From Austropuccinia psidii (taxonomy: Eukaryota; Basidiomycota; Pucciniomycetes; Pucciniales; Sphaerophragmiaceae): a stretch of DNA of 64,000 nt. The DNA lies in assembly GCA_023105745.1 (NCBI GenBank), contig JALGQZ010000006.1, positions 1,971,468-2,035,467 on the forward strand, given 5' to 3'. Shown one piece after another: positions 22,868-64,000 of this stretch. Within the stretch, counting starts at the first letter, position 1. Each line of letters begins with the position of its first letter. The notes beneath the pieces were generated by a model. It was not told the DNA's origin, did not search any database, and saw only the letters and a program-made list of their open reading frames with translations. Both the position numbers and the translations under genes were made by a program.

Positions 22868-22881
22868 ATCATGATTCCCAC

Positions 22882-27480: not shown

Positions 27481-27482
27481 TA

Positions 27483-33874: not shown

Positions 33875-33876
33875 AA

Positions 33877-35881: not shown

Positions 35882-36023
35882 AAAGCATATAAAAAATGCT
35901 CATAATTCAAAAAATCCATAAAAAATAATTTTTTTCATATTATAAATGAGGCTTATATTTTTATTTATTTTTTTGAAATAACATTTTTTCTACTTAATTA
36001 ATTGACATTTTCATTAACTTTAG

Positions 36024-38504: not shown

Positions 38505-38518
38505 AATATTATTCCCAC

Positions 38519-41500
38519 TTGCCACAATTGAGCAATGGTCAACTTGATTTATCAAAAGTTCAAGATGCACAACTTATGAAAACCAAAACAAACAGAGGGA
38601 AAGGGTATACAGCTGGTAAATCCTGTATAACAGAAGTGGTAATTGACAACAAGCCCACTAAAATTTTGCTTGACCCAGGAGCCTTCTGCTCTTGTGTTGG
38701 TAAATCCTTTCTCAAAACTTGTGTACCAAACTTTAAAGATCAATTGTTGCCAATTGATGGGATAAAATTCAATAGTGCAAGTAACCGAATGAAAGCATTG
38801 GGAATTTTTGAAACTAGTGTCATATTTCCACATATAAATGGAAATTTAAGAATCACTGTTGAATTTGTTGTTATGGAAAATTGCTCTAGTACCCATTTTA
38901 TATTGGGAAATGACTATTTAATCATGTATGGAATAGATTGACATAACAAAAAAGACATATAATTTACTATTGGAGACAATAAGCGTCAGAAATTTGCCTT
39001 TTTACCATTTTAAAAATAAATTACAATAAATCAAGTATCACCAGTCAGCTTACAATTGGAAAAATTCAAATCTGAACAGTTGAAGGAGCTTGAAATAAGC
39101 CTTCATCTGACTGATAAACAAGAAAATGAACTTTCTTACCTTTTGTATGACCACAGAGGAGCATTTGCTTCAGACAAAGAAGCTCTAGCAGCAATTATTG
39201 GTAATGAAGTTGATATCATTCTTAACATTGAGAGACCCTATCCACCACTCTTAAGAAGACCTGCATATCCAGCAAGTCCAAAATCAAGAGAAGCTCTAGA
39301 AATTCATATCAAAGAACTTCTGGAACTTAGTGTAATAAGAAAAAGTAGGCCACAATGAAGAAGTAGAGATAACTACACCAGTCATAGTGGCATGGCATAA
39401 TGGAAAATCTAGAATGGTTGGGGAATTTAGAGCTCTGAACACTTATAATGTTCCAGACAGATACCCAATACCAAAAATCCAAATTGCCTTCACCCAAATA
39501 TCTCAAGCAGTGTATATAACCACTATGGATTCCCTTAAAGGATTCCATAAGAATGTGGTGACACCAAGAGAAAGAAAAGACTTGAGAATTATTGTACATT
39601 GTGGAGTGTATGAATACTTAAGAATGCCCTTTGGTATCAAAAATGCACCTTCACACTTCCAAAGAATGATGAATTAAATATTCCCTGAATAACTTTCAGA
39701 GGGATGGTTAATCATTTGCATTGATGACATTATTGTCTGTTCCAAGACTTGGGAAGAGCACATGTACAGATTGTCCAAAGGTTTGACAGAAATTCAATCA
39801 GTAAACATGAAAATCTCCTTGAAGAAATTCCATTTTGGATTTAAAGAACTTAAAGCACTAGGACATGTTGTATCTGGTTTGTCCCTTGAAATTGACAAAA
39901 ACAAAGTTGCGGCAGTATTGCTAAAACACATGCCTCAGAACAAAAAGTCAATTCAGTCATTTTTAGGTTTTGCAGGATATTACAGGCAACACACTAAAGA
40001 TTTTGCATCCATAGCAAGACCACTTTATAAATTGTGTGACAAAGACACAGTATTTTAAATGACTGTTGACAGAGTCAAAGATTCTGAGTCTCTAAGAGAA
40101 GCCTTGACCACTGCTCCACTCTTACTGATGCCAGACTTTAAACTGCCCTTTAAATTTTATATTGATGCATCAGGGGATGGGCTGGGTGCTGCACTTCACC
40201 AAGCTCAGATCATACATGATAAACCTGTAGAAGGACCCATATGTTTCATATTCAGGAAAATCAAACCAACTGAAGCCATATATGGAGGAAGTCAAATGGA
40301 ATGTCTATGCCTTGTCTGGGCCGTGGAAAAATTGAACTACTTCTTAGAGGGATGTGTTTTTGAGGTGATAACAGATTGTACAGCTTTCAAATCACTTTTA
40401 AACATCAAAAAACCCAACAGACATATGCTTAGATGGCAAATAGCCATACAAGAATACAGAGGCAATATGACTATTGTTCATAAGGATGGGAATATTGTCA
40501 GGGTGAGTCTATGTAGAAGCTTAAAAACAGTAAATACAAGCTAGTACTATGACTGTGACACGTCAAAATAAGTAATAAAAAAAAATCTCCAGGTCCTACT
40601 GCTACGTGGTAACAGTGGTGATGAGTCTATTGAGGACCTGGGTTGCAATGTTCTAATATCTTTGACTGTAAAGAGACACTACAATAATTATATTTAATTA
40701 TATCTTTAAGTATTCTAAGGACACTACTGATGATTAACAGTCTTGTCACGTAAGAATATATAATAAAAAGATAAGATGAGGATTTTTGAAGGCAAAAACC
40801 CTTCTTTTTATATCTTTCAAGACTGTCAAGAGTTATTTACTCTTCACACGTCAGAGGAGTGAAAACTTTCACTCCATTGGCCAGTCTGTGGTTCTGGATC
40901 CTCAATTCAGACGTCAGTAGAGGCAGAATTGTGGTTTTGGGACCACAAATGATCATTCTGGATCAATACAGGATGAAAAAACTTTTCACCTGCCACGTCA
41001 GCACTTGGATGACGTTGTTCTGGTGTTTGTATGACCAATACTAGTCATTCTGGGCGGGTTTAAGCTTTGAACAACCATTATTTTGAGTATTAAGACTTGT
41101 ACTGGTTGGTACAGGTTTGGTACAGGCCAGTATTGGCCAAAATTCTTCCAACCAAGATATCTTGGTCAGTTTTTGAGATATCAAGAAACTAAGGGCACAG
41201 AATTGAAGGGCTTAATGAGCTCTTCAATTTGGTATGCTTCATGTTTACCCTTCTTTAATATAGCAAAAGTTATAAGGGTTTTAAGTTTTTGGATGTATTT
41301 TTGTACATCAGTATGAGGCTTCAAAAACTTCCATACCAGATATCTTCTTCAGTTTGGAAGATATCTGTATTCTGATGATACAGTTTTGTAGGGCTTGATG
41401 AGCCCTACAGTTTGGTATATGACACTGTACAGTTGTATGAGTGTATGCCAAAGATACAGGGGTTTGTTTATTTTCTTATTTTCAGAATATCTGTATTTTG

Positions 41501-43680
41501 GTTATTAAACCTTTGAACCAAGATCCCTCAGTCAATTTAAGAGATACAGAGGTCTAAGGTATCTCAAATTAAAGCTCTTGTTGAGATCTTTAATTTGGTT
41601 ATACTTTTGTACAGTTTTGTACAAGCCCTCTTTGACTTTCAGGGGGACTTGGTTTTGAAAATGAGGTTATATGGTATCTCCAGTTGTAGTGGTGTTACAA
41701 CAACATGGATGATATCATTGTGTAGCTCTTTATGTGAGCTTTAAGAAAAATACCATTTTGGTATAGGATAACTTAAATATGCATAAGTTATATGAGAGGT
41801 GAAAATAAGGGTTTTGACTTATTTATTTTCCTCTAGGTTTCCTTATTCTGTTTGGATAAGGTTGGTGTTTAATGTAAGAGGATTGTTTTCTCTTAATTAT
41901 TACCTGTATTGACTATGTTTGTTCAATACTTGTCATACCATTATTTATGGTATGTTGGATGTCATGCTAGTGCTCTGTTTTGAGTCACAGGCTGACAAAT
42001 ATTCATAAGAATGCAGATGGACTAAGCAGATGGCCATTACGAAATAACGTTGATAATCCTGCTTATGTTCCAGAAGAAGCTTCACCACAGATCCCAATAG
42101 AAGGAATAAGTGTTACAGACTTGAACACCACCTTCTTTGAAGAAGTAAGACACAGTTACACTCAAGATAAGAATTGTAGCATATTGTGCCAACTACTTAA
42201 CAAAGACTGTAAAGACAACTCTCTCATACATGCCTTGGATGAAGTATGGAAGAAATCTTATGATGAAGGAAGATTTCACCTACTGGATGGTATAATTTAC
42301 CACAGAACCAAGCACACATGTGTCATGACAGTTGTGGACAGGTCATTAATAAATCTTGTACTGAAGAATGCCATGACAGCCCCTTCTCAGGACATCTGTC
42401 TGAAGACAGAACTAGAGAAAAAGTGAAAACCTGTATATGGTGGCCAATGTGGCAGAAATATGTTGCAGAGTATTGCAAAACCTGTGACAAATGTCAAAAA
42501 GCAAATAAATCCACTGGCAAGAGACTTGGAAATATGATGAAAAGCCAAGAACCAAGCAGACCTTGGGAAATTTTCCATATGGATTGGGTAACTGGCCTAC
42601 CACCTGGAGGTGACAGAAGCTATAATGCTTGCCTCGTGATTGTAGACAGATTCAGTAAAACTCCAATCTTTTTTCTATGTCACAAGGATGATACATCCAT
42701 GGATACTGCTCTTCTGATATGGAATAGAGTAGTGTCATGGACTGGGATATTTACAAATATCATTAGTGATAGGGATCCCAAATTCACTTCAGCACTATGG
42801 ACAAATCTTCACCAATTATTTGGCACTAAACTGTCTTTCTCTACAGCCTACCACCCACAAGCTGATGGCCTGGCTGAAAGGATGATCCAAACCGTAGAGG
42901 ACATGGTAAGAAGATTTTGTGCATATGGCCTTGAATTCAAATATTGTGATGGATTTACCCATTATTGGTGTACTCTGTTTACAGCACTGGAATTAGCATA
43001 TAAAACATCAATCCATGCCAGTACCAATCAAACTCCTGCTATCCTAGAAAAAGGATGGAGCCCCAAATTACCCCAAGATTCCTTGAGGAAAGATTTGATT
43101 GAAATACATCCCACAGCTGCTAGCTTCAAAGGAATGCTAGAAAAAGCTAAAAAGCATGCATTAAGGTACATGGAGGACTCTTTTGCTTGTTCTAAAGACA
43201 AATGGGATAAATCACATGCAACTCCAGATTTCAAAGTAAGGGACTTATTTCTTGTATCCACCACTAACCTCAATAGCATCAAAGGATGTAAAACGCTGAA
43301 AGACTCCTTTGCAGGACCTTTTGCTATTAAGGCCCTCCATGGAGAAAATGCTTTTGAAGTAGAGTTATCTGAAGAGCTTAGCAATAAGCATCCTACATTT
43401 CCAGGGAGCTTGATAAAGCCATATAAATCTAGTGATGCTGAAAAATTCCCCTTGGGGAATAAAGTTCCCCAAGTTATACCTCCTATTGAGTCATCTGGTA
43501 GTAAGAAAATTACCAAAGTTCTCAAAGAAAGAAAGTTGAGCACCAACAAAGTAAGGGAATACCTTGTTAGGTAGTGACCCAGCTTGTGAGGATAAATGGT
43601 TGCCAGAAAAAGACATACCTGAATCTAATAAACTTCTCAGAAGGTTCAGGAACACTAGAGATAGCAATATTACACAGTAA
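38519..43680 (+). pseudogene. A2 protease-RT-RNase H-integrase, decayed and interrupted
   Basis: The protease shows LLDPGAFCSCVG, so Asp-Pro-Gly-Ala appears to be the family-A active-site form. RT keeps two aspartates (CIDDIIVC, 39715-39738) but has stops and shifts around it. RNase H is cut at 40495 by the solo D LTR and resumes at 42003. Integrase keeps [13 protein letters not shown] and ISDRDPKF, and the chromodomain-like end (VREYLVR) breaks at TAG 43572-43574. Many substitutions relative to A1 include transversions. Confidence 0.9.
40496..41997 (-). repeat. Solo LTR of family D, 1502 bp
   Basis: It reads TGTCAGGGTGAG...CAGGCTGACA on the plus strand and is flanked by AATAT at 40491-40495 and 41998-42002. 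The uninterrupted site is seen in A1 (GGGAATATTCATAAG on its sense strand). Its reverse complement matches 47371-48766 at the start (CCTGTGACTCAAAAC), near the end (CTCAATAGACTCATCACCAC) and at the end (ACATAGACTCA). No element-internal sequence is present. Confidence 0.92.
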
Positions 43681-43701
43681 ATCTTTTTTAGGGGGAGGGA
43701 A

Positions 43702-45511
43702 TGTGAGCGTTAGAGGTATTTTCATATACCCAAAAGACCACAAGAGATAAATTAAGATACAAATATTAATAAAATAAATTTATTTATATTATAAAAATAA
43801 GAATTTATATTTAAAAATCAAAAGCTAATTTTTAATTTAAAAATAAAATTGCAATAAAATTTAAAATTATCAAATTATATTTTTACTTGTAAAAATTAAG
43901 TAAAAATGAATTTTTAATAAAAATTGTGAAATTCAAATTTTTTGGTAAAAAGCTATATAAAGTATATTATAGCTTTTCATCCAATAAATAAAAATAAAGA
44001 AATTATCACACCATTGGATTCCTCATAAAAAATAAAGTGGGGTCACCTCTGGATGAAATTTCTGTAACTCAACTCTAAATAAGCTTAAATTAAGTTTTTA
44101 GTATTTTCAATGCAAAAATCGAAAATCCTCAAAACTTTAATTTAATTCACACCACATGTGGTGTTAACAATCAATTTTTTGTGTTAAAATTGCGGTGTTT
44201 TGTTTAGCTTAGAAGTTATGAGGAATTGAAGTTTCTTCAATTGAATTCAATTGAAATGTCAAAATGTGCCCGTGTATTACATAAGTGAACTTTTATTTAC
44301 ATATGAGGTATCAATTATTACTGTGTTTTACTTTACAATTCAATTGAACTAAATATGTAAATTGCAAGTATAATACATGATGAGGAATTAAAGGAAAAAA
44401 TAAATTGGAAAGATTAAAATTGGGAGGGAAAAGGAACTCTAGCTCTAAGGGGGAGCCAGACCCCCAACATCCTTGCTGACTGGTGTGGAATGTCAAAAAC
44501 CACACAAAAGTTCATTACTTTTGGCCTGCAATTGAGTTGCAGGGTCTGTGACTCAATTGATGATGAGGTTTTGATACCAACCAGGGTAGTTTTAACTGCT
44601 GCCAAGAGGGTAAAACTACCCTTAAGTTAAAAACATGTTCGTAAAAAAATCTTTAGCTGGTTTCTACACCTTTTACACACATTATTACATGTTTTGAAGG
44701 CTCTAGCCCAGGTATTACTATAGTAATGGCTGATTTAAGGGTCTAAAATGGCTAAAAATGGCTAAAACCAGCCCCTTTTGGGTCTAAACCAGGGTTCAAT
44801 GATGCCATAATTGGCTTTTCTGTTGTCAGACTGTTTTTCACGACTGACAAGAGTAAATTTTACTTTTGGAGTAAGAAAATTGATGGCTATAAAAGAATGT
44901 CTTCTTTGCCCCATGTTTCTCTTCATGTTAGAATCTTTTCCTTTTATAATTAATTTAAACACTGTTAAACCAATCAATAAAATATTCCAGCCACCTCTTT
45001 TAAACCATTTTAAGCCTTTTAACCACGTGAAAAATCATTATAATCATTGTTTGTAACTCTTATAATCATTTTTACCCCTGAACAACCCCAAAAGTGAATT
45101 AAAGCATCTTTCATCACTGTTAACTTTGTCACTTTGTTTCAAAATTCACTCTGGTTACTTTTGGGCGTGTTTTCTCTTTAATATTCTTTTTAAAGACTTT
45201 GTTCTTTAATTAATTGCTTGCAGTTCATTGCTCAATTAATTCCAATTGAAATTGCTCTTGAAGAAATTTCTTTTGTAGCCTTAAAATATCTCTTGTAGAG
45301 TATTTTTTGGATACATTTTTATTGTTGGTAAAACAATAAATCTTTATAATATTACTGTTTTATACCAATAAAGTTATAAACAATGAAATTGGCCTGTTTT
45401 CTCTTAAAAATAATATTTCTTACTATTTCTAATTGATTTTTACCTTATACAAATTTTGAGGACAGGAAAAGTACTTGATTTTTAATCAAAGTTTCATATC
45501 CGCACCTTACA
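43702..45511 (+). repeat. A2 3' LTR, 1810 bp
   Basis: It runs from TGTGAGCG after AGGGGGAGGGAA to CGCACCTTACA. It is clearly more diverged from the A1 LTRs than they are from each other. Both U3 palindrome cores (GAATTC-centred and CACATGTG-centred) are kept, at about 44236-44257 and 44149-44163. Confidence 0.93.
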
Positions 45512-47350: not shown

Positions 47351-49722
47351 TGTGCTTAATCAAATACTATTGTGAGCCTGTGACTCAAAACCAGAGCACA
47401 AGAATGACAGCCAAGATACCATAAATCAATGGTATAGTCAAGATACCACCAAAACATGGGACTGAGCCAAATCAGCTCAAAAGGTATCAAAGGAATGAGG
47501 AAACTCACCCCTTTCTGAAAATATAAGTCCCATCACCATAGGACAAAGAATAACAAAGTTATTGCTGAGCATAAACCTTAATTTTCACCTCTGATCTAAA
47601 ATCCAGAAGGGGAGGCTTAACCCCATCAAATTGGTATTCAAAATGAAGCTCTAAGCCAGGGCTATCCAATGGTACTAGCCAAACTGAGCTAGCACCAGTA
47701 TTGCTTAAGTTATGGCCAAATTCAGGCCAAATAAGGGTGAACAAAACATTCACCTCTCATCTAACCTTTGCAGTTTTAGCGTGAGATACCTAAAGTGGTA
47801 TCTTTTTGGAAAGAGCACAATCAGGGCTATCTGATGGTGTCATCCATTTCCCCATAGCTCAACTAGAACATATGTTATGGGGCAAATAAGCTCAATACAG
47901 CTTTTTTGCCTAAACCATGCAAATGTACAAAACTCTTGTACATGGGATAGCTTTGCCATATTTAATGATACCCATATCAAATGAGGGACCATTGTGTAGA
48001 GAACAGACAGGGCTACACACCGAACCAATTTTGAGGTTGATATCTCAATAATTGACAAAGTTATGCATGCTTTAAGGTCAGATTCCTACCTGCTGTCATA
48101 TACATCCTTACCATGGGATAATGTCCCATAATCATGAATATGAGGTGTCAAATAGACAAAAGAGCTTGTTTTTACTTCAATACCTCATATGTCTGTCAAT
48201 ACTGCGGTCCCATACAGTTTCTGTACAGCATTCTACGCATCATGCACGTCAGAATCGCGTTGTGAGGTCCCCAGATGAAAATTTTCACCCTGTATTGGTG
48301 AAAACTGCCCAGATGTGGTTTGAAAACCACATCTGAGCCCAATACATGTCTTTTCAAACCACAAGCCTGTCCCAGAGAGTGAAAAATCTTCACTTCCTCC
48401 ACGTGGAAAGGTCTAGCACCCTTTCCACCTCATTTCAGGATAAAAAGGAGGCTTTTCACAGCCAGAATTGTTTCCTCATCCTGCTCTTGAATACCCTACG
48501 TAGTGAACTGTCCAAAACAGTTTTACTCTTGGGTAATAATCAGGTATAACTATAATTTGAAGTATTGTAGCTCTTATTATAGTAATCCAACTGGTAAGAC
48601 TGCACCCAGGGTTCTCAATAGTGCTCACCACCACTATTCTTTGATTATATTATAAATCTTTATTTTGCTCAAAAAACTCTCATCTTGAATTATTTTCTAC
48701 ATGTCACAGTCAAATTTCTAGTTGTAAATAGCCTAATTACTGCTTCAACATAGACTCAGCCTGACAACTGTGGGGCTGGTAATAGACTCAGTAAGAGATA
48801 TATTACCAGTCCAGAATCTGAAGAGAGTATTGAAGTCCAAATGGCTAAACAAGGCACTTTATTCAACTCTGAAAAAGCTAAATTACCACCAAAAGGTGTG
48901 TGTTTTATCTTTATATTTTCACTCTTTATCTTAAACTTGACGTGAAAATGGTGCATACCAGAAATGGACGCAACTATTTAGTCCAGCCAGAAGGATGTGG
49001 ACAAGGAAGAGGAAAGACCAAATGCAGAAGTGTCAAATATTCCTCAAGAAAGACACATGGAGGATATCAGAGTTGCCCCGATTCCCCAAGGTCTGTACCC
49101 ACAAACGTTGATGTGAATTCTGAATCTGGGCTGATTCATGATACCATTTTAATGGCTGAACCACTTTCAAGTGGCAGCAATAGAAATTTATCAATGCCAA
49201 TACAAAAATTGGTTCAGAGCAGCCAAATAAGAGGAGTGGGAAATATGCCCAAGCCTTTGGCAGGGGGCCATGAACTACTACTTACACATCAAGAGCTTTC
49301 TGGGTCAGGAGAAGGCCATAGAACTCTTAGGAGGTTGGAGCTCATTGTCTTTCACAGACAAGGTCAAAAAGATAAATAATTTGTTGAAGAACTAAAGTCT
49401 TTTATCCATAGACCAGAAGAAGGAGTTGGAAATGACTCCAGCTTTGGAGACAGAAGGCCCAGTGGCATCTACCAGCTCCAAATCAGCTCCAGAAGTGTCC
49501 AAAGACAAGCCCAAAGGACCTCAGAAGAAGCAGAAAGTTCCCAAGAACCATCAAGGCAAGGGGAAAGGCAAAGCCAATTGGCACAGACCTTACCCACAAG
49601 GGTACATTATTCCCAAATTGGAGCCTTCAGCAGTGGAAAGTGTCTTCAATATGGCAAGTACTCTTATGGAACTCACAGCCAAAGAGCAGGAAAGGATTAA
49701 CAGTACTTTTCCATGCAAATAA
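47351..49722 (+). pseudogene. Accessory ORF of C2, interrupted by solo LTR
   Basis: The first exon begins after TTCCTAG at 47350, is split at 47370 by the D LTR, resumes at 48767 and ends at donor GTGTGT near 48895. The acceptor ATACCAG in the first gag codons is kept. The +1 frame at 49426-49722 reads to YPQGYIIP and VFNMASTLMELTAKEQERI, which supplies the C-terminal end missing in C1. One further in-frame stop lies upstream of 49426. Confidence 0.5.
47371..48766 (+). repeat. Solo LTR of family D, 1396 bp
   Basis: It runs TGTGAGCCTGTGACTC...CTCAGCCTGACA and is flanked by ACTAT (47366-47370) and ACTGT (48767-48771). The unoccupied C1 site reads ACTGT, so the left copy has mutated once. It is in sense orientation relative to C2. 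Confidence 0.88.
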
Positions 49723-50310
49723 TAGATGAAATACACTTTGTTAAATCTAGTATTGATGTAGAAATTGGAAAATTTGATGCAAATTTAAAAAAAATTATAT
49801 TGGACATGAGTGAACTGAAGAGAAATGTCAAAATGTATACTGAATGGTATCAATTAACAAATGTAAGACTTGATTCAATGACCAATACATGTGACAGAAT
49901 TGAGAGTAAATGTCAAGTTCAAAATGATGAAATAGAATATCTTTCCATTTTAAACATTAATGATCAACTTAGAATTCTGAAAGACCATGTCTTGGAAATA
50001 ACTAAGAATACCAATCAGTTTGCCACACATTTGGAAAAAAGTGACAGTGAAAGGCAGAATTTAAGGAATGAAATCATTGCAAATGCAAAACAAATTCATA
50101 AGAATTGTGAACCACATATTCCAAGAAATTCTACACACTTGACTGAAGAAAAACCTTCTGTTAGAGGAAGTTTGACCCCATTCTTAGGAGAAAATGTTAT
50201 CTCTGCAAAAGATATTCCCAAATTGGGAGAATGGCCAAGATTCTGTGGTGAAGGAGAATATAACCATATTGAGTTCATCAGAGCTATTGATATGTTGCAA
50301 GAAGATTTTC
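48948..50310 (+). pseudogene. C2 gag, N-terminal part
   Basis: It starts at ATG 48948 (MVHTRNG). The low-complexity overlap region is interrupted by a stop at 49377-49379, and the coiled coil at about 49720-50080 is open (SDSERQNLRNEI). The capsid part GEGEYNHIEFIRAIDMLQEDF is split in the codons after EDF by the TTTTC target duplication of element B. It continues at 63062. Confidence 0.85.
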
Positions 50311-52437
50311 TGTGATCCTGTGAGGTAAGTACAACATACCCATAAGTCCACAAATGACTTTATACACAGTTGAATTTGTCTTTAACAGACTTTTTAATTG
50401 AATTTAAAATAAAAAATAACAAAAAATAAGTATAATTTTTTTTGGATAAACAAAGTTATAAATATTATGTCATTTTTGGATTCTACACCAAAAATAACCT
50501 AGGGTACACCCATAAGGTGTTATACCCAAAAACACTTATTTCTTATGTTATTGGAAGATTTAAGAATCTCACAGTACTAATTTAACTTTTTTAAAATTGT
50601 TAAATTTAAGCTTAAATTGAAAGTTGCATAAAGCTTATGCAAACTTACCAGAATTTTAGTTAAAATTGAGGTGTTGTGTATATTTACTGAATTGGCTAAG
50701 GATTTGCCATACAGAATGTAAATCCTGCGTGAGCTCAATTTAAAGGGGTTTAAGGCCATATTATGGCTTTAAATAAATAAAAGGGCAAAATCCACGCAAA
50801 AAGGTGGGACAAAGGAAAAAGACCAAATAGAGCTGGGGTACCCATTTTTTTGGATCTGCAAGGATTCAATTAAGGTTGTCCACCTGTATTGGAGGATTTT
50901 CAGCCTTATTTAAGCTTTAATATTAGACTTTGATCCAAAATTAAAGTTTAAACTGGTTTTATCCCAATTTAGACGGGAATTTCAAGTTACCAAAGGGTAA
51001 ATCCCAATATGAAGACTTGAAGTGAAGGTTTTAAAAACTGTAAGAACTTAATTAAGCTTAAAAATTTAAGGTTACAAGCATTAAAACCTTATCGAAAGTT
51101 AAGGTTTTGTGTGTATTGCTATTTTACGTGGAAAATTAACAATCACTTCAAAATTCATTAAAAATCCAATTCTTAATGGATTTGCTTGAAGGTTTCACGC
51201 ACCTTACAATTTAATATTATCTATATATAAATCAAATTTTAAGTATCTTTTATAAATAAATTTCCTGGGTACTTAGCCTGGAAATTTACTCTTTTAATTA
51301 AAGCTCAAAGGAAATTATAATTTCTTTAAAAATTAATTAAAAATTGAGTTTAAGAGATTTCTGCTTGAAACGCTATTTTTAAGTTGTTCATGTGATGAAA
51401 TTTAATCTAAATAAGTTGATTTATATTAAAAACTTAAAATAATTAGTTTAAATGAGGATTCAAGTTACATGGAGTTAAGAATAACACTGGTGACTTTAAA
51501 TTGGAATTAAAAATAAGTTAACTTAAGTTAAGAAATTTATTTTTAAGCATGGTTTTTCATTTTTGACTTGAGAACGCCCTCTATATTCACTATGAATCAT
51601 GAGAGCTGCTCTGAAGACATAAAAAGAGTCTTTTCATCACTGTTTTTGTCCATCAATTATTATCAAATCCAATCATATTAGATATTTAAACAGGTAAAGT
51701 TTTATTAAATCTAAAACCTTATTATTAAAGTAATTCTTAAGTTATTTTATTCTTTATTAATTAAAGTTAAAGAATTTAAATCATAGAATTCCGATTATTG
51801 TTGTAATCACCAATAATATATTTTATTATATAGAATTATCATCTTAAATATCTTCTAAAAATCCACAAATTCCTCTTAAAAACTCTTTAATAATAATTTT
51901 TATTATAAAAAGTTGTTTTATCTTTGAAAATATTGATTTTTGGTGTTTTTTTAACTTATAATTATTACTTAATATAATAAATGTTGTTGTTTAACTTGTT
52001 GTATTGAATAAATATCATAAGTAGGTTTTCTCTAAAGTTCTATATTTTTTTATCTAGTATTAGTTTTTCTTTAGAATTTTTCTATAAGAATTATTTCTGC
52101 ACAGTGTGTGTTTTAATTGTTTCATAAATAATATTTATATTATTTATAAGTGGTTAATATTCATATTTTCCATGTGTAATTGTCTCATTAAGAGCTTTAC
52201 ACTTCTTATTGTTATAATTGTCAGTGACTATAGCAATAATAGAATAATTATAATTTATTATAATTATTATATTTTTATAATAATAATTAAATTTAATTTT
52301 TTTACAGAATTATTTTTAATAATTATATTTAAATTTTTGGTTATAATATTTACTTATATTATATATTTCTACTGAGGACGGTCATAGTACTCTTGATATT
52401 GCTACTATTATCAAGGGTTTCATAGACAAGCCTTACA
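50311..52437 (+). repeat. B 5' LTR, 2127 bp
   Basis: It runs TGTGATCCTGTGAGG...AAGCCTTACA and aligns along its whole length with 60898-63056. It is very AT-rich with no gene. Confidence 0.92.
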
Positions 52438-52439
52438 TT

Positions 52440-52457
52440 TGGGGGCCTGGCCATGAT
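52440..52457 (+). promoter_or_regulatory. B primer-binding site
   Basis: TGGGGGCCTGGCCATGAT lies two bases after the LTR end. It differs at one base from the C1 site (CCATG for CCGTG), which creates an ATG here. Confidence 0.6.
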
Positions 52458-52991
52458 TTTAACGAATTTTTGGGACATAAATCATATTCTAGACCTTATT
52501 TTACTATCTTTTGATGTAAAATTGCCATATTTATCTTGATATCGGCTTTTTTGGGACTTATCCCTCATAAATAATTTTTATAATATTAATAAAGTTATTT
52601 TTTTCTTAAGAATATTGTTTGAAACAATATACTATTGAGTGACTTGGAATAAATTTCTTTTGTCTAACTAGTGGCTTTTTCACATCACAGACTTGAAATT
52701 TATTCTTTGAGTTATTCTAGTATAAAGTAAATAATAATACAATTTTGATTAATAAACTTGTTAATTGCATAATTATTATTTCTTTGAAGAAAAATGGAAA
52801 TAAAATCAAATAAAAAATTGAAAAATTAAAAATCTTTACTAAAAATATTTTTTCTTTGATCTTAGACATTTTTCTTTATTTTTGACGTAATTTTCCATAA
52901 ATTACATTTAATCAACTTTATTCAATAAGTTGAGTTCATAAGTTATTTTTATTATTTGATAAAATAGCTTATAATTTTATTTTTTCTCTAG
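52458..52991 (+). other. B leader
   Basis: AT-rich leader sharing AATCATATTCTAGAC with the C1 leader. It ends in TTTTTTCTCTAG, a strong acceptor before the accessory exon. Confidence 0.5.
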
Positions 52992-55775
52992 TGCCATTAA
53001 TTAGAGATAGCTCTTCAGACTCTGAAGCCTCAGCGTCCAGTATTGAAATTCAAACTGTAAGGTGTGGATATGAAACTTTGATTAAAAATCAAGTACTTTT
53101 CCTGTCCTCAAAATTTGTATAAGGTAAAAATCAATTAAAAATAGTATGAAATATTATTTTTAAGAGAAAACACGCCAATTTTATTGTTTATAACTTTATT
53201 AGTATAAAACAATAATATTATAAAAATTTATTGTTTTACCAACAATAAAAATTTATCCAAAAAATACTCTACAAGAGATATTTTAAGGCTACAAAAGAAA
53301 TTTCTTCAAGAGCAATTTCAATTGGAATTAATTGAGCAAAGAACTGCAAGCAATTAATTAAAGAACAAAGTCTTTAAAAAGAAAATTAAAGAGAAAACAC
53401 GCCCAAAAGTGACCAGAGTGAATTTGGAAACAAAGTGACAAAGTTTACAGTGATGAAAGATGCTTTAATTCACTTTTGGGGTGGTTCAGGGGTAAAAATG
53501 ATTATAAGAGTTACAAACAATGATTATAATGATTTTTTCACGTGGTTAAAAGGATTAAAATGATTTATAAATGGTGGTTGGAATCTTTGATTGATTGGTT
53601 TAACAGTGTTTAAACTAATTAATAAAAGGAAAAGATTCTAACATGAAGAGAAAAGTGGGGCAAAGAAGACATTCTTTTATAGCCATCAATTCTCTTACTC
53701 CAAAAGTAAAATTTACTCTTGTCAGTCGTGAAAAACAGTCTGACAACAGAAAAGCCAATTATGGCATCATTGAACCCTGGTTTAGACCAAAAAAGGGCTG
53801 GTTTAAGCCATTTTTAGCCATTTTAGACCCTTAAATCAGCCATTACTATAGCAATACCAGGCCTAGAGCCTTAAAAACATGTCAGAATGTGTGTCAGAGG
53901 CGTAGAAACCAGTTAAAACTGTTTCTATTATGATTGTTTTATCTTAAGGGTAGTTTTACCCTCTTGGCAACAGCTAAAACTACCCCAGTTGGTATCAAAA
54001 CCTCATCATCAATTGAGTCCACAGACCCTGTAACTCAATTCCAGGCCAAAAGTGATGAACTTTTGCGTGAATTTTGACATCCCAGGCCTGTCAGCAAGGA
54101 TTTTGGGGGTCTAGCTCCCCCTTAGAGCTGGAGTTCCTTTTCCCCCCCAAATTTAATCTTTCCAATTTATTTTTCCTTTAATTCCTCATCATGTATTATA
54201 CTTATACTTTACATATGTAATTCAATTCAATTGTACAGTACAATACAGTAATAATTGACACCTCATATGTAAATCAAAGTTCACTTATGTAATACACGCG
54301 CACATTTTGACATTTCAATTGAATTCAATTGAAAATACTTCAATTCCTCATAACTTCTAAACTAAACACAACACCTCAATTTTAACACAAAAATTGATGG
54401 TTAACACCACATGTGGTGTGAATTAAATTAAGGTTTTGAGGATTTTCAACTTTTGTATTGAAAATACTAAAAACTTAATTTAAGCTTATTTAGAGTTGAG
54501 TTACAAAAATTTCACTCAGAGGTGACCCCACCTGATTTTTTATGAGGAATCCAATGGTGAAATAATTTTTATATGTTTATTTATTGGATAAAAAGTTATA
54601 ATAATTTTTATTTAACTTTTTTCCAAATTTATTTATTTTTTTACAGTTTTGTTAAAAATTCATTTTTACTTATTTTTTTTAAGTATAAATGTAATTTTAT
54701 AATTACAAAATTTAATGTAATTTTAATTTTAAATTTGAATTAAATTTTTTTTTATTTTGAATATAATTTTATATTTATATTCTAATTTTTATTGTAATAA
54801 TATAAATAAATTTATTTTACTTATATTTATATACTAATTTTTGTATTTGTGGTCTTTTGGGTACATGAAATTACCTCTAAGGCTCACACAAACTATCCCA
54901 GCACCAAGGGGTTTGATAACGAAAGAACCCTTCAAAGGTCCAGCAGGTGAATTCAATTCATTCTTAGTCCATTTTTTCTTACAATTGATGTGAAATGATT
55001 CCTACTAGAAGTGGAAGGAATTACTCCATCCAATCAAATGGATCTGGACCAGGACATTCCAGTCACAAATCAAAAAGACAAGAATGTCAGCCCAGAGGAG
55101 AGGCACAAATGGAGGATGCCACAACTTCCACCAGTTCCCAAAGGTTAGCCAGCACCTTTGAAACTCTTATTGAGGGTCCAGAAGCTGACATAACTGCTAT
55201 TGCTGTTAGACCTGAATCATTTCCAACAGGAAGCGGTGGAGATTTCCCAGTTTCAGTACAAGAACTGGTTCATGGCCGCAAAACAGCAAGAGTGCAAACT
55301 TCTCCCAAGTCTTTGGATAAGCACAATTAACTCTTATCTTCAAGTGAAGAAGGTCATGGAGCCAGAAAAGACAGAAGAACTTCTGAAGGGTTGGACACCA
55401 ATGTCTTGCAAAGGACAAGTCCAACAGATAAAATCTTGGTTGAAAAACCAAAGTATGTTATCAGAGGATCAGAAGAAGAAATTGGCCCAAGGCAAGGAAA
55501 ACAGCCCAGTGGAAGCTCCCCAAGCATCCACAAGCAAAAATAAGCCTCAACAAGTGCCAGAAAAGCCCAAGCAAGCCCCAAAGACTAATCAGAAGGGCAA
55601 TCAAAAGGCAAAGGGAAGGGCAAAGCCCAAATGGAACAAGCCTTACCCACAGAATTACAGAATCCCAAAGGAAGAAAAGACAGCCATAGACAATGTGTTC
55701 AATATGGCAAGAACTCTGATGGAATTCAAAAACAAGGAGGAGGAAAGATTCAACCAATCTTTGCCAAAGAAATAG
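52992..55775 (+). CDS. Predicted spliced accessory ORF overlapping gag (B), split by solo LTR
   Basis: The first exon is 52992-53055 plus 54894-54946, rejoined in frame if the solo LTR and one CAAAC are ignored. Intron 54947-55008 (GTGAAT...ACTAG, 62 nt) spans the gag ATG. The second exon is 55009-55143, intron 55144-55209 (GTTAGC...GTTAG, 66 nt, CTGAC as branch site) removes the in-frame TAG and TAA, and the third exon 55210-55775 ends after EERFNQSLPKK. The product would be about 271 residues from this exon on. It shares with C1 SNQMD, ERHKWRMPQLPPVP, QYKNWF, NSYL, QIKSWLKNQS, YPQNYRIP and VFNMARTLM. The frame survives although gag in this copy has several stops. The solo LTR now disrupts the first exon, so this copy would not make the protein. 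Confidence 0.58.
53056..54888 (-). repeat. Solo LTR of family A, 1833 bp
   Basis: It is antisense to B and flanked by CAAAC at 53051-53055 and 54889-54893. It is nearly identical to the A1 LTRs over its full length, so this insertion and the recombination that left a solo LTR are recent. Both U3 palindromes are present. Confidence 0.95.
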
Positions 55776-57666
55776 ATCTTGTTAAGCTTGTAACTCAATT
55801 TGAATCTTGTGATAAAGAAATTATGACAAAGTTTAAAACACTTGAGTATATCCAACAAAAGTTGGGTAATGAGATATTTCAAGTAAAATACCAACAAAAA
55901 ACCATTATTGGACTTGAGAATGTTAATAAAGACAATATTGAGTCTTTGATGCAAATTTGTGCAAGAATTGAGTCTAAAGCTACTTTGCTCAATCAACCAG
56001 ATGACAATTCAATTTCTTTGTAACTGGACAGTTAAGAGAATTGAAATTACAAGTTCAAAACTTGGAAAATTCAACTGGTTACAATGCAGCTCTTTTCCAA
56101 GAGCAATTGGAAAAAAGTGATAAAGCAAGACTTGAATTAAAAGAAGACATTCAATCAAGTATTAATAATATATCACAGAAAAATTAATTTCCAAGGCAAT
56201 CCACACCAATTCTAGACAGAAATGTGCTTAACTTGAATAATGATTTACATCATACCATTTAAAGTAATGATGTGGAAACTGCTTGAAATTTCAAAGACAT
56301 TCCAAAATTAGAGGAATGGCCAACCTTCAATGGTGAAGGAGAATATAATCATATGGAATTTGTGAAAACAATTGATATGTTCAAAGAAGACTTTAGCATA
56401 CCAGATGAATACATAAGTGCCAGATTACACTCATTATTTACCAGATCAGTAAAGAAATGGTATTACAAAATGAGACAGGACCATGGTAAACATTCTTGGC
56501 CTTGGTGGAAAGAACAAATTATTTCCAAATGGGAAAATGATTCCTGGTGATTTAGAATGGAAAATTCTTTTGAAGAAACCATTTTTAATATTGAGAGGGA
56601 CAGGCCCATGTCTTGGTTTCTTAAGCAGAAGGACGGATTACCTGCCCTTCATCCTAATATGTCTGAAACAATGATACATAAAAGGATATTAAGAAAGTGT
56701 GGTGGTGACCTTGAGCATGCTATAAGAAGAAGATTTATTGAGCCTTGCTCTACAGAGGATTATATCAATGCTATGGAGGACATCACTACTAGAACAAAAA
56801 TTGGACAAAATTGGTCCAAATCCCCAATAGACAACAAGACTAATGGGAAACCAATTTCAAAGCCAAATAAGACACAAGACAGATTTCCTTTGAAATGTCA
56901 AAAATGTGGAAGTACGTTTCATTTAGCAAACACCTGCCCAAAAAAGACAAGAATCAATGAGATAAATGTTGAAAAAGTGGAAGACACAAAAGAAACAACT
57001 GATGTATCTTTACATGAAAGTGATTCTGAGCCTTCAGAAGAAGAAGAAGTACCAGAAGAGCTTAGTATAGAAAACATTGATATTTCTTTTGAAGTCACTG
57101 AGGTACACACTCATTTACCAAAATACAGTGATGAATTTATGGATCTCATACATGTGCAAGATGCTAAAATGCAGAAAACCAAATCTTCCAGAGGTAAAGG
57201 GTATACAGCTGGTTCATCTTGTATCACTAATATTGTGATAAGCAATACAGAAGCCAAGATACACCTTGACGCAGGTGCGTTTTGCACTTGTGTTGGAAAA
57301 GATTATCTTGAAAAGGTTTATACCAATTGGCAAGACAAATTAATACCAATTGAAGGTATAACGTTCAGCAGTGCTAGCCAAAACATGCACCCCTTGGGTA
57401 TATTTGAAGCAGCAATAATATTTCCTCATCCTACAGGAAGTATAAGATTGAAAGTTGAAATTGTTGTCATGAATAATTGTACTTCACAACACTTTATACT
57501 TGGGAATGATAATCTCAATATTTATGGTATTGATATTAATGATCATAAAGAGAGGTATTTCACTATATGGGAAAATAAAAGACAAAGATTTGCTTTTCCT
57601 CTAAAAACAAGAGAAATTACTGTCATTAAGCAAGTGAAAAATGTTAAGAAGGAAAGATTTGTGTAA
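54995..57666 (+). pseudogene. B gag and protease, decayed
   Basis: It starts at ATG 54995 (MIPTRSG). Stops at 55328-55330 and later break the gag frame in the region overlapping the accessory frame. The capsid part spans 56290-56700 (FNGEGEYNHMEFVKTIDM, WPWWKEQIISKWEN, then TGA at 56548-56550). A zinc knuckle CQKCGSTFHLANTC lies at about 56899-56940. The protease reads LDAGAFCTCVG near 57267, so the usual Thr or Ser after the catalytic Asp is Ala. It ends at 57666. Confidence 0.88.
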
Positions 57667-57672
57667 GGTCAA

Positions 57673-60600
57673 TTGATTGAAGCACAAATTAGTCCTGAAT
57701 TAACACTTGAAATGAAGGAAGAGCTTATTGAAATTTTATTTCAATACAGGGAAGCCTTTGCTTCAGATAATGAATCACTTGGAGCTATCAAAGGCCATGA
57801 AGTGGACATTATGCTTAATTTGGAAAGGCCTTATCTGCCACTATTAAGAAGACCATCTTACCCAGCTAGCCCCAGGGCTAGAGAAGCATTAGAAAGTCAT
57901 ATTAATGAACTAATGAAATTGTTAGTTCTTAGGAACTTTGGACACAATGAGGAGGTAGAAGTCACAACTCCAGTAATCATTACTTGGCATAATGATAATT
58001 CAAGGATGGTTGGTGATTTTAGAGCACTGAATACCTATACTATTCCAGACAGGTATCCAATCCCTAGAATTCATGAAGCTTTGACTCAATTATCCAAAGC
58101 AAGATTAATTACTTCAATGGATGCTGTGAAAGGCTTTCATCAGAATGTTTTTACACCTCATGCTAGGAAATTATTGAGAATAATTGCTCATTGTGGGATT
58201 TATGAATATTTGAGAATGCCTTTTGGTATTAAAAATGCAACCTCTCATTGTAGAGAATGATGAATACCATCTTCCCACATGAATTTTCAGAAGTATGATT
58301 AATCAGTTATATTTATGAAATTATCATTTGTTCAGAAACCTGGCAATTACATTTAGAGACATTCATTAGTACTTAAGAAAATTTTCCAAGTGAACATGAG
58401 AATATTTCTTAAGAAATGTAATTTTGTGTTTCATGAGTTAAAAGCTCAAGGACATGTAGTCTCAGGACTGAGCCTTGGTGTTGACAAAAGCAAAGTGGCT
58501 AGAGGTTTACTTAAACAAATTCCCAGAATGAAAAAGAAATTATGTCTTTTTTAGGGTTTGCCCGTTATTACAGGCAGCTACTTCAAGATTTTGCAATCCA
58601 TGCTAGATCATTATACAGAATATGTGATCAACAAACTGTTTTTGAAATGACACAGGAAAGGATTCAAGCATATGATAAAATCAACTATTCCTTGACCAAT
58701 GCACCATTATTATTGATGCCAGACTGGAAACTTCCTTTCAAGCTGTATATTGATGCATGTGGTGAAGGTTTAGGAGCTGCTCTTCATCAAGTTAGAATTG
58801 TCAATGACAAACCTTATGAAGGTCCAATTTGTTTTATTTCAGGACAAATTAACCCTACTGAGGCCAGGTATGGAGCTAGCCAAATGGTGTGCCTTTGCCT
58901 TGTTTGGGCTTTGGAAAAACTTCATTACTATCTTGATAGTAGTGTGTTTGAAGTAATTACTGATTGTAATGCAGTAAAATCACTTCTTAACATGAAAACT
59001 CCAAACAGACACATCTTAGGATGGCAGATTGCTATACAAGAGTATAGAGGCAATATGACCATAGTACATAAAGCTGAAAATATTCATAAGAATGCTGATG
59101 GCTTAAATAGATGGGCATTACCTAATACACCTGACAACCCTGCCTATGTTCCTACAAGTGCAGAACCTCAAATTCCAATTGAAGGAATTAATATCACAGA
59201 TGTTGGAACAGAATTCTTTGAAGAAGCTAGAGAAAGCTATAAGAAAGATAAGAATTGTCATATTCTTACTGCTCTACTTGACAAAGATTGCAAAGATGTA
59301 GCCTTGGCTAATTCTCTAGATGATATTTGGAAAACCTCTTATGATAATGGAAGATTCCATTTATTTGATGGTATACTATATCATAGATCTAAACACACAT
59401 GTGTCATGGTCCTATGTAGTAGAATGTTAATTAATACAATACTACTAGAATGCCATCATGACATATATTCTGGACATCTGTCTGAAGACAGAAATATGGA
59501 AAGAATTAAGACATGTTCCTGGTGGTCATCTTGGAGGAAAGATGTCATTGAGTACTTTCACAGTTGTGATAGATGCCAGAAAGCCAATAAAGCTACTGGT
59601 AAAAGATTTGGTTTAATGATCCATATTCAAGAACCAAGTTCCCCATGGGAAGTGGCTCACATGGATGGGATAACTGCCTTACCACCTGGAGGTGATAAAA
59701 GTTATAATGCATGTCTTGTTATTGTGGACAGATATAGCAAAACACCAATCTTTCTACCATGTCACAAAGATGACACAGCTATGGATACAGCTCTTTTGAT
59801 CTGGAATAGAGTAATATCCCATACTGGTCTCTTTAAAAAAATCATTAGCAACAGAGACCCAAAATTTACATCAGCCTTATGGACTAATTTACACAAGCTT
59901 TTGGGTACAAGACTATCATTCTCAACAGCCTACCATCCACAAACAGATGGGCTGGCAGAAAGAATTATTAAAACCTTGAAGGACATGATCAGAAGATTTT
60001 GTGCTTATGGCCTGGAGTTTAAAGACTCTGACGGCTTTACTCATGATTGGTGCACTCTTATGCCAGCATTGGAATTAGCCTACAAGACCTCCATCCATGC
60101 TTCAACAGGAAAAACTCCTGCAATGTTGGAGAAAGGATGGAACCCCCAACTTCCAGCTGATACTTTGGAAAAAGATCTGATTGATATTCATCCAACTGCA
60201 TCAAGCTTTAAGTTATTGCCTGATTAAGTGAGACATCATGCAAATCAAAGCATGAATAATGCTTTTGAATATGCTAAACAGAAATGGGATAAAAGTCATA
60301 AGACCCCAGAATTCAAAGTAGGGGACTTTTTACTAGTTTCAACCTTGAACTTTAATAATATTAAAGGCCCAAAGAAATTAAAAGATTCCTTTGCAGGACC
60401 ATTTATTATTAAAGCCCGCCATGGGACAAATGCAGTACAAGTAGAACTGTCAGGAGAACTGGAAAACAATCATCCAACTTTTCCTGTCAGTCTAGTAAAG
60501 CATTACCCTTCAAGTGATCAGGAATTATTTCCTTTGAGAAATGAAACACCCTTAGAAGTACCCCCACTAGATCAAAGTTAGGATAAAAAGGTACTAACAT

Positions 60601-60760
60601 TCTTGAAAGAAAGAAGACTTAGAGGAAAAAATGAAAGAGAATAGTTAGTCAGGTATAAAAATCTACAACATGAAGATGAATGGATTTTAGAAAGCAAAAT
60701 ACCTGATTCCCAAATGTTCCTCAGAAGATTCAGACATGAGCAAAGACCAATTGCTCAATG
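57673..60760 (+). pseudogene. B reverse transcriptase-RNase H-integrase, decayed
   Basis: The RT N-terminal blocks are clear (GHEVDIMLNLERPYLPLLRR, MVGDFRALNTYTIPDRYP, MPFGIKNA). The frame shifts near 58250, and the catalytic YxDD reads YIYE near 58305, so RT is dead. A long open stretch, 58542-60227, carries RNase H ([14 protein letters not shown]) and integrase with the finger [10 protein letters not shown]...CDRC and acidic sites in [15 protein letters not shown] and [16 protein letters not shown] at 60225-60227 precedes the GPF module (SFAGPFII), and TAG near 60641 cuts the chromodomain-like end (LVRYKN...DEWILESKI). The remaining frame ends near 60760. Confidence 0.9.
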
Positions 60761-60879
60761 AAAAGTTTTAATTATGTGCTTTACATACTTAAAAGTATAA
60801 GTAGAGAGGTTGGACAGTGGATTATACCCCCCCAAATAACTTGGGGGTAGACTACAAGAGAAAAATTGTGGTACAATTC

Positions 60880-60897
60880 TTTTTCGGTGGTAGGGAA
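60880..60897 (+). promoter_or_regulatory. B polypurine-like tract
   Basis: TTTTCGGTGGTAGGGAA precedes the 3' LTR start TGTGAGCC. It is a weaker purine run than in family A. Confidence 0.55.
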
Positions 60898-63056
60898 TGT
60901 GAGCCTGTGAGGTATGTATAACATACCCATAAGGCCACAAATGACTTTATACAAAGTTAAATTTTTCTTTAACAGACTTTTTAATTGAATTTAAAATAAA
61001 AAATAACAAAAAATAAGTATAACTTTTTTTTGGATAAAAAAAGTTATAAATATTATGTCATTTTTGGATTCTACACCAAAAATAACCTAGGGTACACCCA
61101 TAAGGTGTTATACCCAAAAACACTTCTAATGTTATTGGAATATTTAAGAATCTCACAGTACTAATGTAACTTTTTTAACATTTTTTAAAATTGTTAAGTT
61201 TAAGCTTAAATAAGCTTAAGTTTAAAGTTGCATAAGGTTTATGTGAACTTACCAAAATTTTAGTTAAAATTGAGGTGTGGTGTATATTTACTGAATTGGC
61301 TAAGGATCTGCCATACAGAATGTAAATCCTGCGTGAGGTCAATTTAAAAGGGTTTAAGGCCATAGTATGGCTTTAAACAAATAAAAGGGCAAAATCCACG
61401 CAGAAAGGTGGGACAAAGGAAAAACACCAAATAGAGCTGGGGTACCCAACTTTTTGGATCTGAAAGATTAAATTAAGGTTGTCCACCTGTATTGGAGGAT
61501 TTTAAACCTTATTAAGACTTTAAGATTAGACTTTGATCCAACATTAAAGCTTAAACTGGTTTTATCCCAATTTAGACAGGAATTTCAAGCTGCCAAAGGG
61601 TAAATATCAATATGCAGGCTTGAATATAAGGTTTTAAGAACTGTCAAAACTTAAATAAGCTTAAAAATTTAAGTTTACAAGCGTTAAAACCTTATCAAAA
61701 GTTAAGGTTTGGTGTGTATTGCTATTTTAAGTGGAAAATTAGCAATAACTTCAAAAATTCATTAGCAATCCAATTCTTAATGGATTTGCTTGAAGGTTTC
61801 ACGCAGCTTACAATTTAATATTATCTATATATAAATTAAATATCAAGTATCTTTTATCAATAAATTTTCTGGGTACTTAGCCTGGAAATTTACTCTTTTA
61901 ATTAAAGCTCAAAGAAAATTATAATTTCTTTAAAAATTAATTAAAAATTGAGTTTAAGAGATTTCTGCTTGAAACTCTATTTTTAAGTTGTTCATGTGAT
62001 GAACGTTAATATAAATAAGTTTCTTTATATTGAAAACATAAAATAACTAGTTTAAATGAGGATTAAAGCTACATGGAGTTAAGAATAACACTGGTAACTT
62101 TAAATTGGAACTAAAAATAAGTTAACTTAAGCTAAGAAATTTATTTTTAAGCATGGTTTTTCAGTTTTGACTTGAGCACGCCCTCTATATTCATTATGAA
62201 TCATGAGAGCTGCTCTGAAGACATAAAAAGAGTCTTTTCACCACTGTTTTTGTCCATCAATTATTATCAAATCCAATCATATTAGAAATTTAAACAGTTA
62301 AAGTTTTATTAAATATAAAATCTTATTATTAAAGTAATTCTTAAGTTATTTAATTCTTCATTAATTAAAATTAAAGAATTGAGATCATAGAACTCAGATT
62401 ATTTTTGTAATCACCAATAATATATTTTATTACATAGAATTATCATCTTAAATATCTTCTAAAAATCCACAAATTCCTCTTAAAAACTCTTTCATCATGA
62501 TTTTTATCATGAAAAGTTGTTTTATCTTTAAAAATATTGATTTCTGGCGTGTTTTTAACCTATGATTATTACTTAATATTATAACTGTTGTTGTTTGACT
62601 TGTTGTATTAAATAAATATTATAAGTATGTTATCTCTAAAGTTCTATATTTTTTTATGTAGTATTAGTTTTTTTTAGAATTTTTCTATAAGAATTATTTC
62701 TGCACAGTGTATGTTGTAATTCTTTATGAATAATATTTATATTATTTACAAGTGGTTAATATTCATATTTTCCATGTGTAATTGTCTCATTAAGAGCTTT
62801 ACACTTCTTATTTTTATAATTTTCAGTGACTATAACAATAATAGAATAATTATAATTTATTATAACTATTATATTTTTTTTATTATTATATCTTTATAAT
62901 AATAATTAGATTCATTTTTTTTATATAATTCTTTTTAATAATTATATTAAAATTTGTGGTTATAATATTTCATTATATTATATATTTCTACTCAGGATAG
63001 TCATAGTACTCTTGATATTGCTACTATTATCAAGAGTTTCATAGACAAACCTTACA
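60898..63056 (+). repeat. B 3' LTR, 2159 bp
   Basis: It runs TGTGAGCCTGTGAGG...CAAACCTTACA and pairs with 50311-52437. It is followed by the right TTTTC duplication. It contains no gene. Confidence 0.92.
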
Positions 63057-64000
63057 TTTTCACATAACTTATGAAACTATAGTGGGAAAATTACACTCTC
63101 TGTTCACCAGAACTGCAAAGAAATGGTATTACAAGATGAGACAAGATCATGGAAAACATGATTGTTCTTGGTGGAAATCTGAAATGATTACTAAATGGGC
63201 CAATAATTCTTGGAGGTTTAAAGTGGAGAATGCTTTTTAAAGTTTCATTTTTAACTCAAAAAAGGATAAACCACTTACTTGGTTCTTCAAGAAGAAAGAC
63301 AGGTTATTTGCTTTACACCCAGATATGTCTGACACCATGATTAATATGAAAATATTAATAAAATGTTGAGGAGATCTGGAACATGCTATCAAGTGTTGAT
63401 GTGTAGAACCCTGTTCAACAGAAGGCTACATTAATGAAATGGAAGATATCATTACTAGAACAAGAATTGGTAAAACTTGGACTAAAATTCCTATGGAGTC
63501 CAAAATGGTCCCAAAGATTTTGAGAGAAGGCAGCAAATCTGGAAGACCTGTCTTGAAGTGTCATAAATGTGGAAGCACTTCACATTTAGCCAAAACTTGC
63601 ACCAAAAAGACAGAAATCAATGAAGTTCAAGTGATTGAAGAAGCTCAGTGTACTGAAGAGAAAGAGTAATCTGATCTAGAATCTGCAGTCTCTGAGGATA
63701 CACCAGTAGAGGACTATCCCATTGAAAACATTACAGCTTTGTTTGAGGTCACAGAAGTCCATACTCACTTTCCACAATAGAGTGAGGATTGCTATAACCT
63801 GATAAATATCCAGGATGCCAGAATTTTTAAGACTAAACCTGCTAGAGGTAAAGGATACACTGCTGTAGCATCTTGTATCACATCAATTCTGATGGATGAT
63901 ATTGAAGCCAAGGTAAATTTGGATACAGGGGCATTTAGCACTTGTGAAGTACAAGAATGAATACAGAGATAGTAGTAATGGACAATTGTACATCTCAAAA
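63057..64000 (+). pseudogene. C2 gag continuation and start of protease, cut by window end
   Basis: The capsid frame resumes after the B insertion (IVGKLHSLFTRTAKKWYYK, WWKSEMITKWANNSWRF). TAA at 63238-63240, TGA stops near 63367-63399, a stop at 63667-63669 and TAG near 63778 show decay. A zinc knuckle CHKCGSTSHLAKTC spans about 63559-63600. The protease motif reads LDTGAF near 63918-63935, the canonical form. The window ends within the protease. Confidence 0.87.

Follow-up and report, generated by a model that had tools for sequence, protein, structure and literature searches.

The 64,000-nucleotide stretch of the Austropuccinia psidii genome analysed here (contig JALGQZ010000006.1, positions 1,971,468 to 2,035,467; 36% G+C; termed the window) harbours copies of three families (A, B and C) of Ty3-type long terminal repeat (LTR) retrotransposons, in each of which an open reading frame (ORF) in the +1 frame, designated X, extends across the 5' part of gag. 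Where X overlaps gag, the amino acids of X are under purifying selection, and the gag frame remains stop-free with its amino acids drifting. X is very probably a selected protein and is probably made by splicing; from its exon anatomy and from gene models, it is likely to represent an accessory protein translated from spliced RNA, i.e., a second protein of rust-fungus Ty3-type elements. DNA for both frames was available from five copies in the window (A1, A2, B, C1 and C2). The genome of A. psidii is reported to consist mostly of Gypsy-superfamily DNA.

A preceding sequence-only reading of the window had listed +1-frame motifs shared by B and C1, all of which were recovered: positions 55098-55143 read ERHKWRMPQLPPVPK and 17837-17792 read ERHIWRMPELPPIPP, and SNQMD, QYKNWF, NSYL, YPQxYRIP and VFNMARTLM are common to X of both copies. 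At the first motif place, EDA is the main match between the gag frames, as had likewise been noted. Family A also carries X, with part of the shared motifs. Over exon 4 (X and gag frame each on its own alignment, A2 left out), X is ahead of the gag frame in all six pairs, with identities of 96/181 (53%) vs 57/182 (31%) for B-C1, 85/182 (47%) vs 52/183 (28%) for B-C2, 162/185 vs 143/185 for C1-C2, 61/157 vs 38/156 for B-A1, 64/158 vs 34/158 for C1-A1 and 62/158 vs 29/159 for C2-A1; compared with A1, copies B, C1 and C2 range from 39-41% in X vs 18-24% in the gag frame. The claim that the +1 frame is conserved between B and C and the gag frame is not therefore holds as far as the higher identity of X is concerned, and has to be qualified for gag, the frame of which is kept stop-free in C1 and A1.

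Constraint on the X and gag frames

In the overlap, third positions of X codons fall on gag position 1, and second positions on gag position 3. Differences at gag positions 1/2/3 amount to 29/12/9 in the overlap and 30/35/57 downstream for C1-C2, to 99/53/39 in exon 4 and 108/78/135 downstream for C1-B (the exon 4 count runs to 17163, beyond C1's own X stop), and to 34/5/16 in the overlap and 49/36/97 downstream for A1-A2 (overlap spanning exon 3, exon 4 and also intron 3, an open stretch in A1). All three pairs have most differences at gag position 1 in the overlap and at gag position 3 past the X stop (gag position 1 to position 3, overlap vs downstream, Fisher p: 3e-5 for C1-C2, 2.5e-7 for C1-B and 2.8e-5 for A1-A2). 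The first two pairs share C1 and are thus non-independent, and A1-A2 is independent of them. Among B, C1 and C2, the order of positions is unchanged whether the alignments are threaded on X or on gag.

Estimates of the ratio of nonsynonymous to synonymous change (dN/dS, Nei-Gojobori-type) agree with these counts. Across the overlap, X yields 0.22 (0.12-0.42) for C1-C2 and 0.27 (0.15-0.50) for A1-A2, synonymous sites of C1-B being saturated (resampled values 0.08-0.25), vs 6.6 (C1-C2), 1.95 (C1-B) and 0.85 (A1-A2) for the gag frame. Downstream, gag itself yields 0.30, 0.40 and 0.34, respectively, and the X frame past the end of X, serving as negative control, 1.06, 0.94 and 1.47. The gag-frame values above 1 are best interpreted as a consequence of the constraint on X, and not as a sign of positive selection. 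The frame-by-frame dN/dS comparison proposed in the sequence-only reading on a genome-wide scale was run on the window copies and places X below the gag frame over the overlap; together with the codon-position counts in three pairs and downstream controls that behave as expected, it bears out the earlier suggestion that selection acts on the +1 frame.

Since stops are avoided in the gag frame, this frame is not free either. X codons were permuted among synonyms in 5000 shuffles and gag-frame stops were counted, the shuffled stretches being stop-to-stop ORFs that include some intron bases. The gag frame contains no stop in C1 (179 codons; 6.6 expected) and none in A1 (221 codons; 8.0 expected), and 0 of 5000 shuffles were as low in either copy. 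Even in the decayed copy B, 3 stops are found vs 9.25 expected (P = 0.0018); these are the several stops observed earlier in the gag frame of B, located over 55194-55772, where the X frame has none. The reverse shuffle, counting X-frame stops, provides weaker evidence for X (C1, 1 vs 3.45, P 0.056; A1, 0 vs 2.30, P 0.036; B, 0 vs 2.31, P 0.033). X being selected and the gag frame being kept open, the overlap is therefore dual-coding, with X as the dominant frame.

For the amino acids encoded by the gag frame in the overlap, the signal of constraint is weak or unsettled. Among the 120 annotated gag relatives listed, 93 have gag-frame coverage of 70% or more of exon 4, with a mean identity of 0.745 to C1. 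The corresponding values are 0.824 for exon 3 (41/120) and 0.764 for the intron 3 part (50/120), as compared to 0.646 for the gag-only linker past the overlap (107/120) and 0.826 for the capsid-side region (46/120). Within family C, conservation of the gag frame across the overlap is accordingly moderate, exceeding that of the linker and falling short of that of the capsid side; part of this conservation would be carried by the constraint on X. Synonymous divergence of X in the overlap vs gag downstream is 0.247 vs 0.598 for C1-C2 and 0.223 vs 0.240 for A1-A2. The value for X is lower in the first pair and hardly so in the second, hence the weak or unsettled signal for gag.

Exon structure of X and the elements in the window

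The candidate splice sites of X (introns GT..AG) occur at matching places in the three families (Table 1). In all of them, exon 2 follows an AG and opens with TG, the phase of which is unchanged (52992 in B, 18147 in C1, 33652 in A1). Candidate intron 2 (62 nt in B, 65 nt in C1, 64 nt in A1) contains the gag ATG (54995, 17937 and 33404, respectively), the place of which is constant across the three families. The last base of this intron is base 14 of the gag ORF and falls within gag codon 5. Candidate intron 3 (72 nt in A, 66 nt in B, 63 nt in C) is bounded by GT..AG at matching places, has a length that is a multiple of 3 in each family and is coding in the gag frame; it holds X-frame stops in B and C1 and is open in both frames in A1, where X and gag frames are both open over the overlap. 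X of C1 has its own stop at 17208-17210, after VFNMARTLM. In B, a further intron candidate ends before 52992, and the segment 53056-54888, which had been read through as an intron, turned out to be a solo family-A LTR inserted into X exon 2. Donor-like sites that end in A are present upstream in all three families, with only a single one in A. This site was tried as the end of exon 1 and rejected: by eye it lies upstream of a TATA-like box, and because it is the only candidate in A, no exon 1 donor is proposed.

The proposed joins recur in part in annotated gene models. Exon 2 sequence was detected by pattern scan in 3 of 240 annotated proteins (P0003, P0007 and P0067), all from copies without the LTR insert in exon 2; intron 2 is joined as proposed in P0067 and slightly differently in P0003 and P0007. 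A pattern across intron 3 caught 9 of 120 annotated X proteins, 8 of them joined at the proposed site and P0007 at another; by eye, the proposed site is used in P0005, P0008 and P0009, and not in P0006 and P0013. Several A-type proteins (e.g., P0242 and P0274) have exon 2 joined to exon 3, and A-type models retain intron 3 in some cases (P0242) and lack it in others (P0281).

Judging from the matching splice sites and these gene models, unspliced RNA would retain the gag ATG and serve for Gag-Pol synthesis. Splicing of intron 2 would delete the gag ATG and link the upstream X exons to the +1 frame, intron 3 being spliced out as well, so that the choice of splicing would determine whether X or Gag is made.

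Protein searches at E <= 0.001 retrieved 389 matches with B-type X and 578 with A-type X (the sets may overlap), and the best 120 of 389, 304 and 578 matches were listed. Among those listed, 120/120 relatives of A-type X, 119/120 of B-type X and 119/120 of C1 gag are from A. psidii MF-1, and all named relatives are from A. psidii. Pattern matches in viral contigs (3) and in prokaryote genome contigs (295) yielded no confirmed case. Some A-type X proteins (P0248, P0267, P0292, P0302, P0330 and P0334) carry the UniProt name 'No apical meristem-associa...'; a Pfam scan of A1 X revealed no such apical-meristem domain.

Table 1. Location of X, gag and the retrotransposon copies within the window
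Feature	Position	Strand	Remarks
B X exon 2, first part	52992-53055	+	starts after CTAG, TG in phase xTG; same exon in P0003, P0007, P0067
Solo family-A LTR within B X exon 2	53056-54888	-	96% to A LTRs; antisense to B; 5-bp target duplication CAAAC
B X exon 2, second part	54889-54946	+	first 5 bases are the target duplication; matches P0003, P0007, P0067
B candidate intron 2 (GT..AG)	54947-55008	+	holds gag ATG 54995; ends inside gag codon 5 (T-R); same junction in P0067
B X exon 3	55009-55143	+	overlaps gag
B candidate intron 3 (66 nt)	55144-55209	+	coding in gag frame; PVPK-DLNHFQ junction in annotated X proteins
B X exon 4 to X stop	55210-55775	+	main dual-coding stretch; 3 gag-frame stops
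C1 X	17163-18147	-	exons 18147-17989, 17923-17792, 17728-about 17163; introns 17988-17924, 17791-17729; gag ATG 17937
C1 gag	16327-17937	-	open from ATG through overlap
A1 X	32741-33652	-	exons 33652-33455, 33390-33301, 33228-32744; introns 33454-33391, 33300-33229; gag ATG 33404
A1 gag	30978-33404	-	frame open through overlap
Element A1	25635-35713	-	LTRs 25635-27459 and 33877-35713, 98% alike; target duplication CAACC
A2, second family A copy	35877-45511	+	5' end cut; both frames damaged
Element B	50311-63056	+	5' LTR 50311-52437; LTR pair 50311-52440 / 60898-63059, 91% alike
Copy C2 of family C (X and gag present)	48812-50310	+	both frames damaged; interrupted by B

Paired LTRs and short target duplications are present in A1 and B, and the C copies are fragments in the window, C1 being located on the minus strand at 16.3-18.1 kb. 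The A1 pol ORF (27483-29693) matches the Pfam families RT_RNaseH, Integrase_H2C2, rve and SH3_Tf2-1, with RNase H preceding integrase, i.e., in Ty3/gypsy order, as read in A1 pol alone. Pol of A2 contains about 1.5 kb (about 40497-41990) of unrelated DNA without a family-A match, situated between two matching parts. Element B is nested in gag of copy C2, flanked by the target duplication TTTTC at 50306-50310 and 63057-63061, and C gag resumes at 63058, beyond element B.

Another LTR-type element (20686-24306, minus strand) has a gag matching Retrotrans_gag and Ty3_capsid and a pol matching RVT_1 (Pfam). Unlike this gag, those of A1 and C1 gave only matches below the Pfam cut-offs. Precomputed PF27605 or PF27695 is assigned to many gag relatives, and a scan of one of them (P0151) with the Pfam copy used here returned neither. 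The window furthermore contains a DNA transposon with a Transposase_21 (tnp2) and a Plavaka-type match (13052-14473), a fragment of an SNF2-related domain (7842-8333) and a tandem array with a unit of about 40 bases (1222-1890).

Competing readings and the nature of X

Several observations weigh against X as a selected product of spliced RNA or against a function assigned to it. Exon 1 and a start codon of X were not found upstream in A, B or C, and four of the five window copies are damaged in one or both frames. Splicing and the X protein are predicted from DNA and gene models, the annotated joins being gene predictions, which favour open frames. Among the annotated family C gags, the gag-frame overlap is more conserved than the gag-only linker. 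The switch in codon position is not significant for C1-C2 when transversions alone are counted (p = 0.1), and the short family C exon 3 and intron 3 display no significant position bias when taken by themselves (gag positions 1/2/3 for C1-C2, 5/5/4 in exon 3 and 3/3/7 in intron 3; for C1-B, 18/15/11 and 10/11/7). As to function, Pfam returned nothing above cut-off for the X proteins of A1, B and C1 or for three annotated X proteins, a PDB sequence search with X of B found no relative, two AlphaFold models of X are weak (predicted template modelling scores 0.29 and 0.31) with no reliable fold, and Foldseek with the second model gave no match at E <= 0.001 in PDB and BFVD.

The similarity of X could simply follow from conservation of gag or from biased mutation, e.g., loss of methylated CpG, and A. 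psidii elements are indeed reported as CpG-depleted (PMC8063080). Yet the position switch stands without CpG-type sites (p 2e-4 for C1-C2, 1e-5 for C1-B and 2e-3 for A1-A2) and, in C1-B (p 0.028) and A1-A2 (p 0.016), with transversions alone; in the overlap, gag position 3 has the fewest or second fewest differences, contrary to what selection on gag alone would produce, and the X frame is unconstrained after the X stop. This explanation is refuted for the window copies and appears extremely improbable overall. Gag-frame dN/dS values above 1 in two of three pairs would also be compatible with a selected X next to a Gag that now starts at an internal ATG past the overlap, leaving the upstream gag frame untranslated. 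The avoidance of stops in the gag frame makes this unlikely, as does the coverage of exon 4 by most of the listed gag-frame proteins, a count subject to gene-prediction bias. Also improbable is that X forms the N-terminal part of Gag, reached by a -1 shift or by a splice into the gag frame, such that the upstream gag frame would need no translation. Such a fusion is in line with the frame of Gag, which is -1 with respect to X, and with X being the better conserved frame, but is at odds with the lack of gag-frame stops across the overlap in C1 and A1 and with the constant place of the gag ATG in the three families. A slip heptamer in the X frame is present once in A1 and absent from B, C1 and C2; as it is not shared, a -1 frameshift was set aside as a route from X to Gag.

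More serious is the possibility that X, encoded and spliced just as described above, serves as a structural component of the particle (matrix-like or a capsid helper), which we consider a plausible minority view and about as likely as a role in RNA handling. The AlphaFold models contain helices with fair local confidence, and the highest 19-residue mean hydropathy is low in the two X proteins examined (0.08 and 1.13), which therefore have no clear membrane stretch. Gag itself seems, by eye, to possess a zinc knuckle (weak, and below the Pfam cut-off in A1 gag), so the RNA binder need not be X. A structural role is disfavoured by the strongly basic linker and by the missing structural match at E <= 0.001, although neither model is good enough to rule out a capsid or matrix fold. 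Isoelectric points of 9.3-9.8 mark four annotated X proteins as basic, and their linker is positively charged. Returning to X as an accessory protein from spliced RNA, its predicted helical middle, lysine-rich linker and C-terminal helix might, as a weaker inference, serve to handle unspliced element RNA (export, protection or packaging) in the manner of Rev and of CERV, a protein of the Caenorhabditis elegans element Cer1; this function is proposed by analogy and only tentatively.

Known systems and implications

The retroviral proteins Rev and Rex are made only after intron removal, are encoded in overlapping frames and possess a basic region. X would resemble them in all three respects and differ in its location, as Rev and Rex are not known to lie across the 5' part of gag. 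Extra products of the gag region are also said to exist in Ty1, where p22/p18 reportedly derive from a sub-genomic transcript started inside GAG, and in murine leukaemia virus (MLV), where P50 is reportedly an accessory protein within gag of a splice-donor-associated product. Both share with X the origin from the gag region, but are reported to use the gag frame itself.

A close parallel in anatomy is Cer1, a Gypsy/Ty3-group element. According to PMC10309623, which also covers Rev, its CERV is translated from a spliced mRNA of five exons, one of which uses a frame of its own, and is required for export of the unspliced RNA, from which GAG and POL are made, and has no obvious homology outside nematodes. 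X would share with CERV the type of element, a protein from spliced RNA, and unspliced RNA as gag-pol message and genome; by contrast, X lies across the 5' part of gag, the start of which would be missing from the X mRNA. The function of CERV was tested experimentally, as described there, and X is likened to it by anatomy, not by sequence. Additional ORFs of plant LTR retrotransposons encode an extra conserved protein of unclear role, with spliced RNA reported for some (PMC7264820); unlike those described there, X is located inside gag in another frame. An accessory protein of LTR elements made from spliced RNA is hence already known; new, as far as literature searches go, is the placement inside gag in a different frame and with the stronger constraint. 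No report of a rust gag +1-frame protein was found in the literature searched, subscription papers and most preprints being outside it, and the main texts of two A. psidii genome papers contain no word beginning with 'gag'.

A retrovirus-like splicing programme may be envisaged as a speculative extension, in which the gag start is deleted, X regulates the unspliced RNA of the element, the X start codon may be put together across an exon junction (A|TG), and the N-terminal region of gag is a pliable read-through of the X gene, not the other way round. For annotation, caution is advised, as annotated gag N-termini and X proteins in A. psidii represent two readings of one stretch. The many natural copies would serve the study of two frames sharing one DNA, and, if the proposed nature of X is correct, fungal Ty3-type elements would, like retroviruses and Cer1, carry a regulatory gene expressed by splicing.
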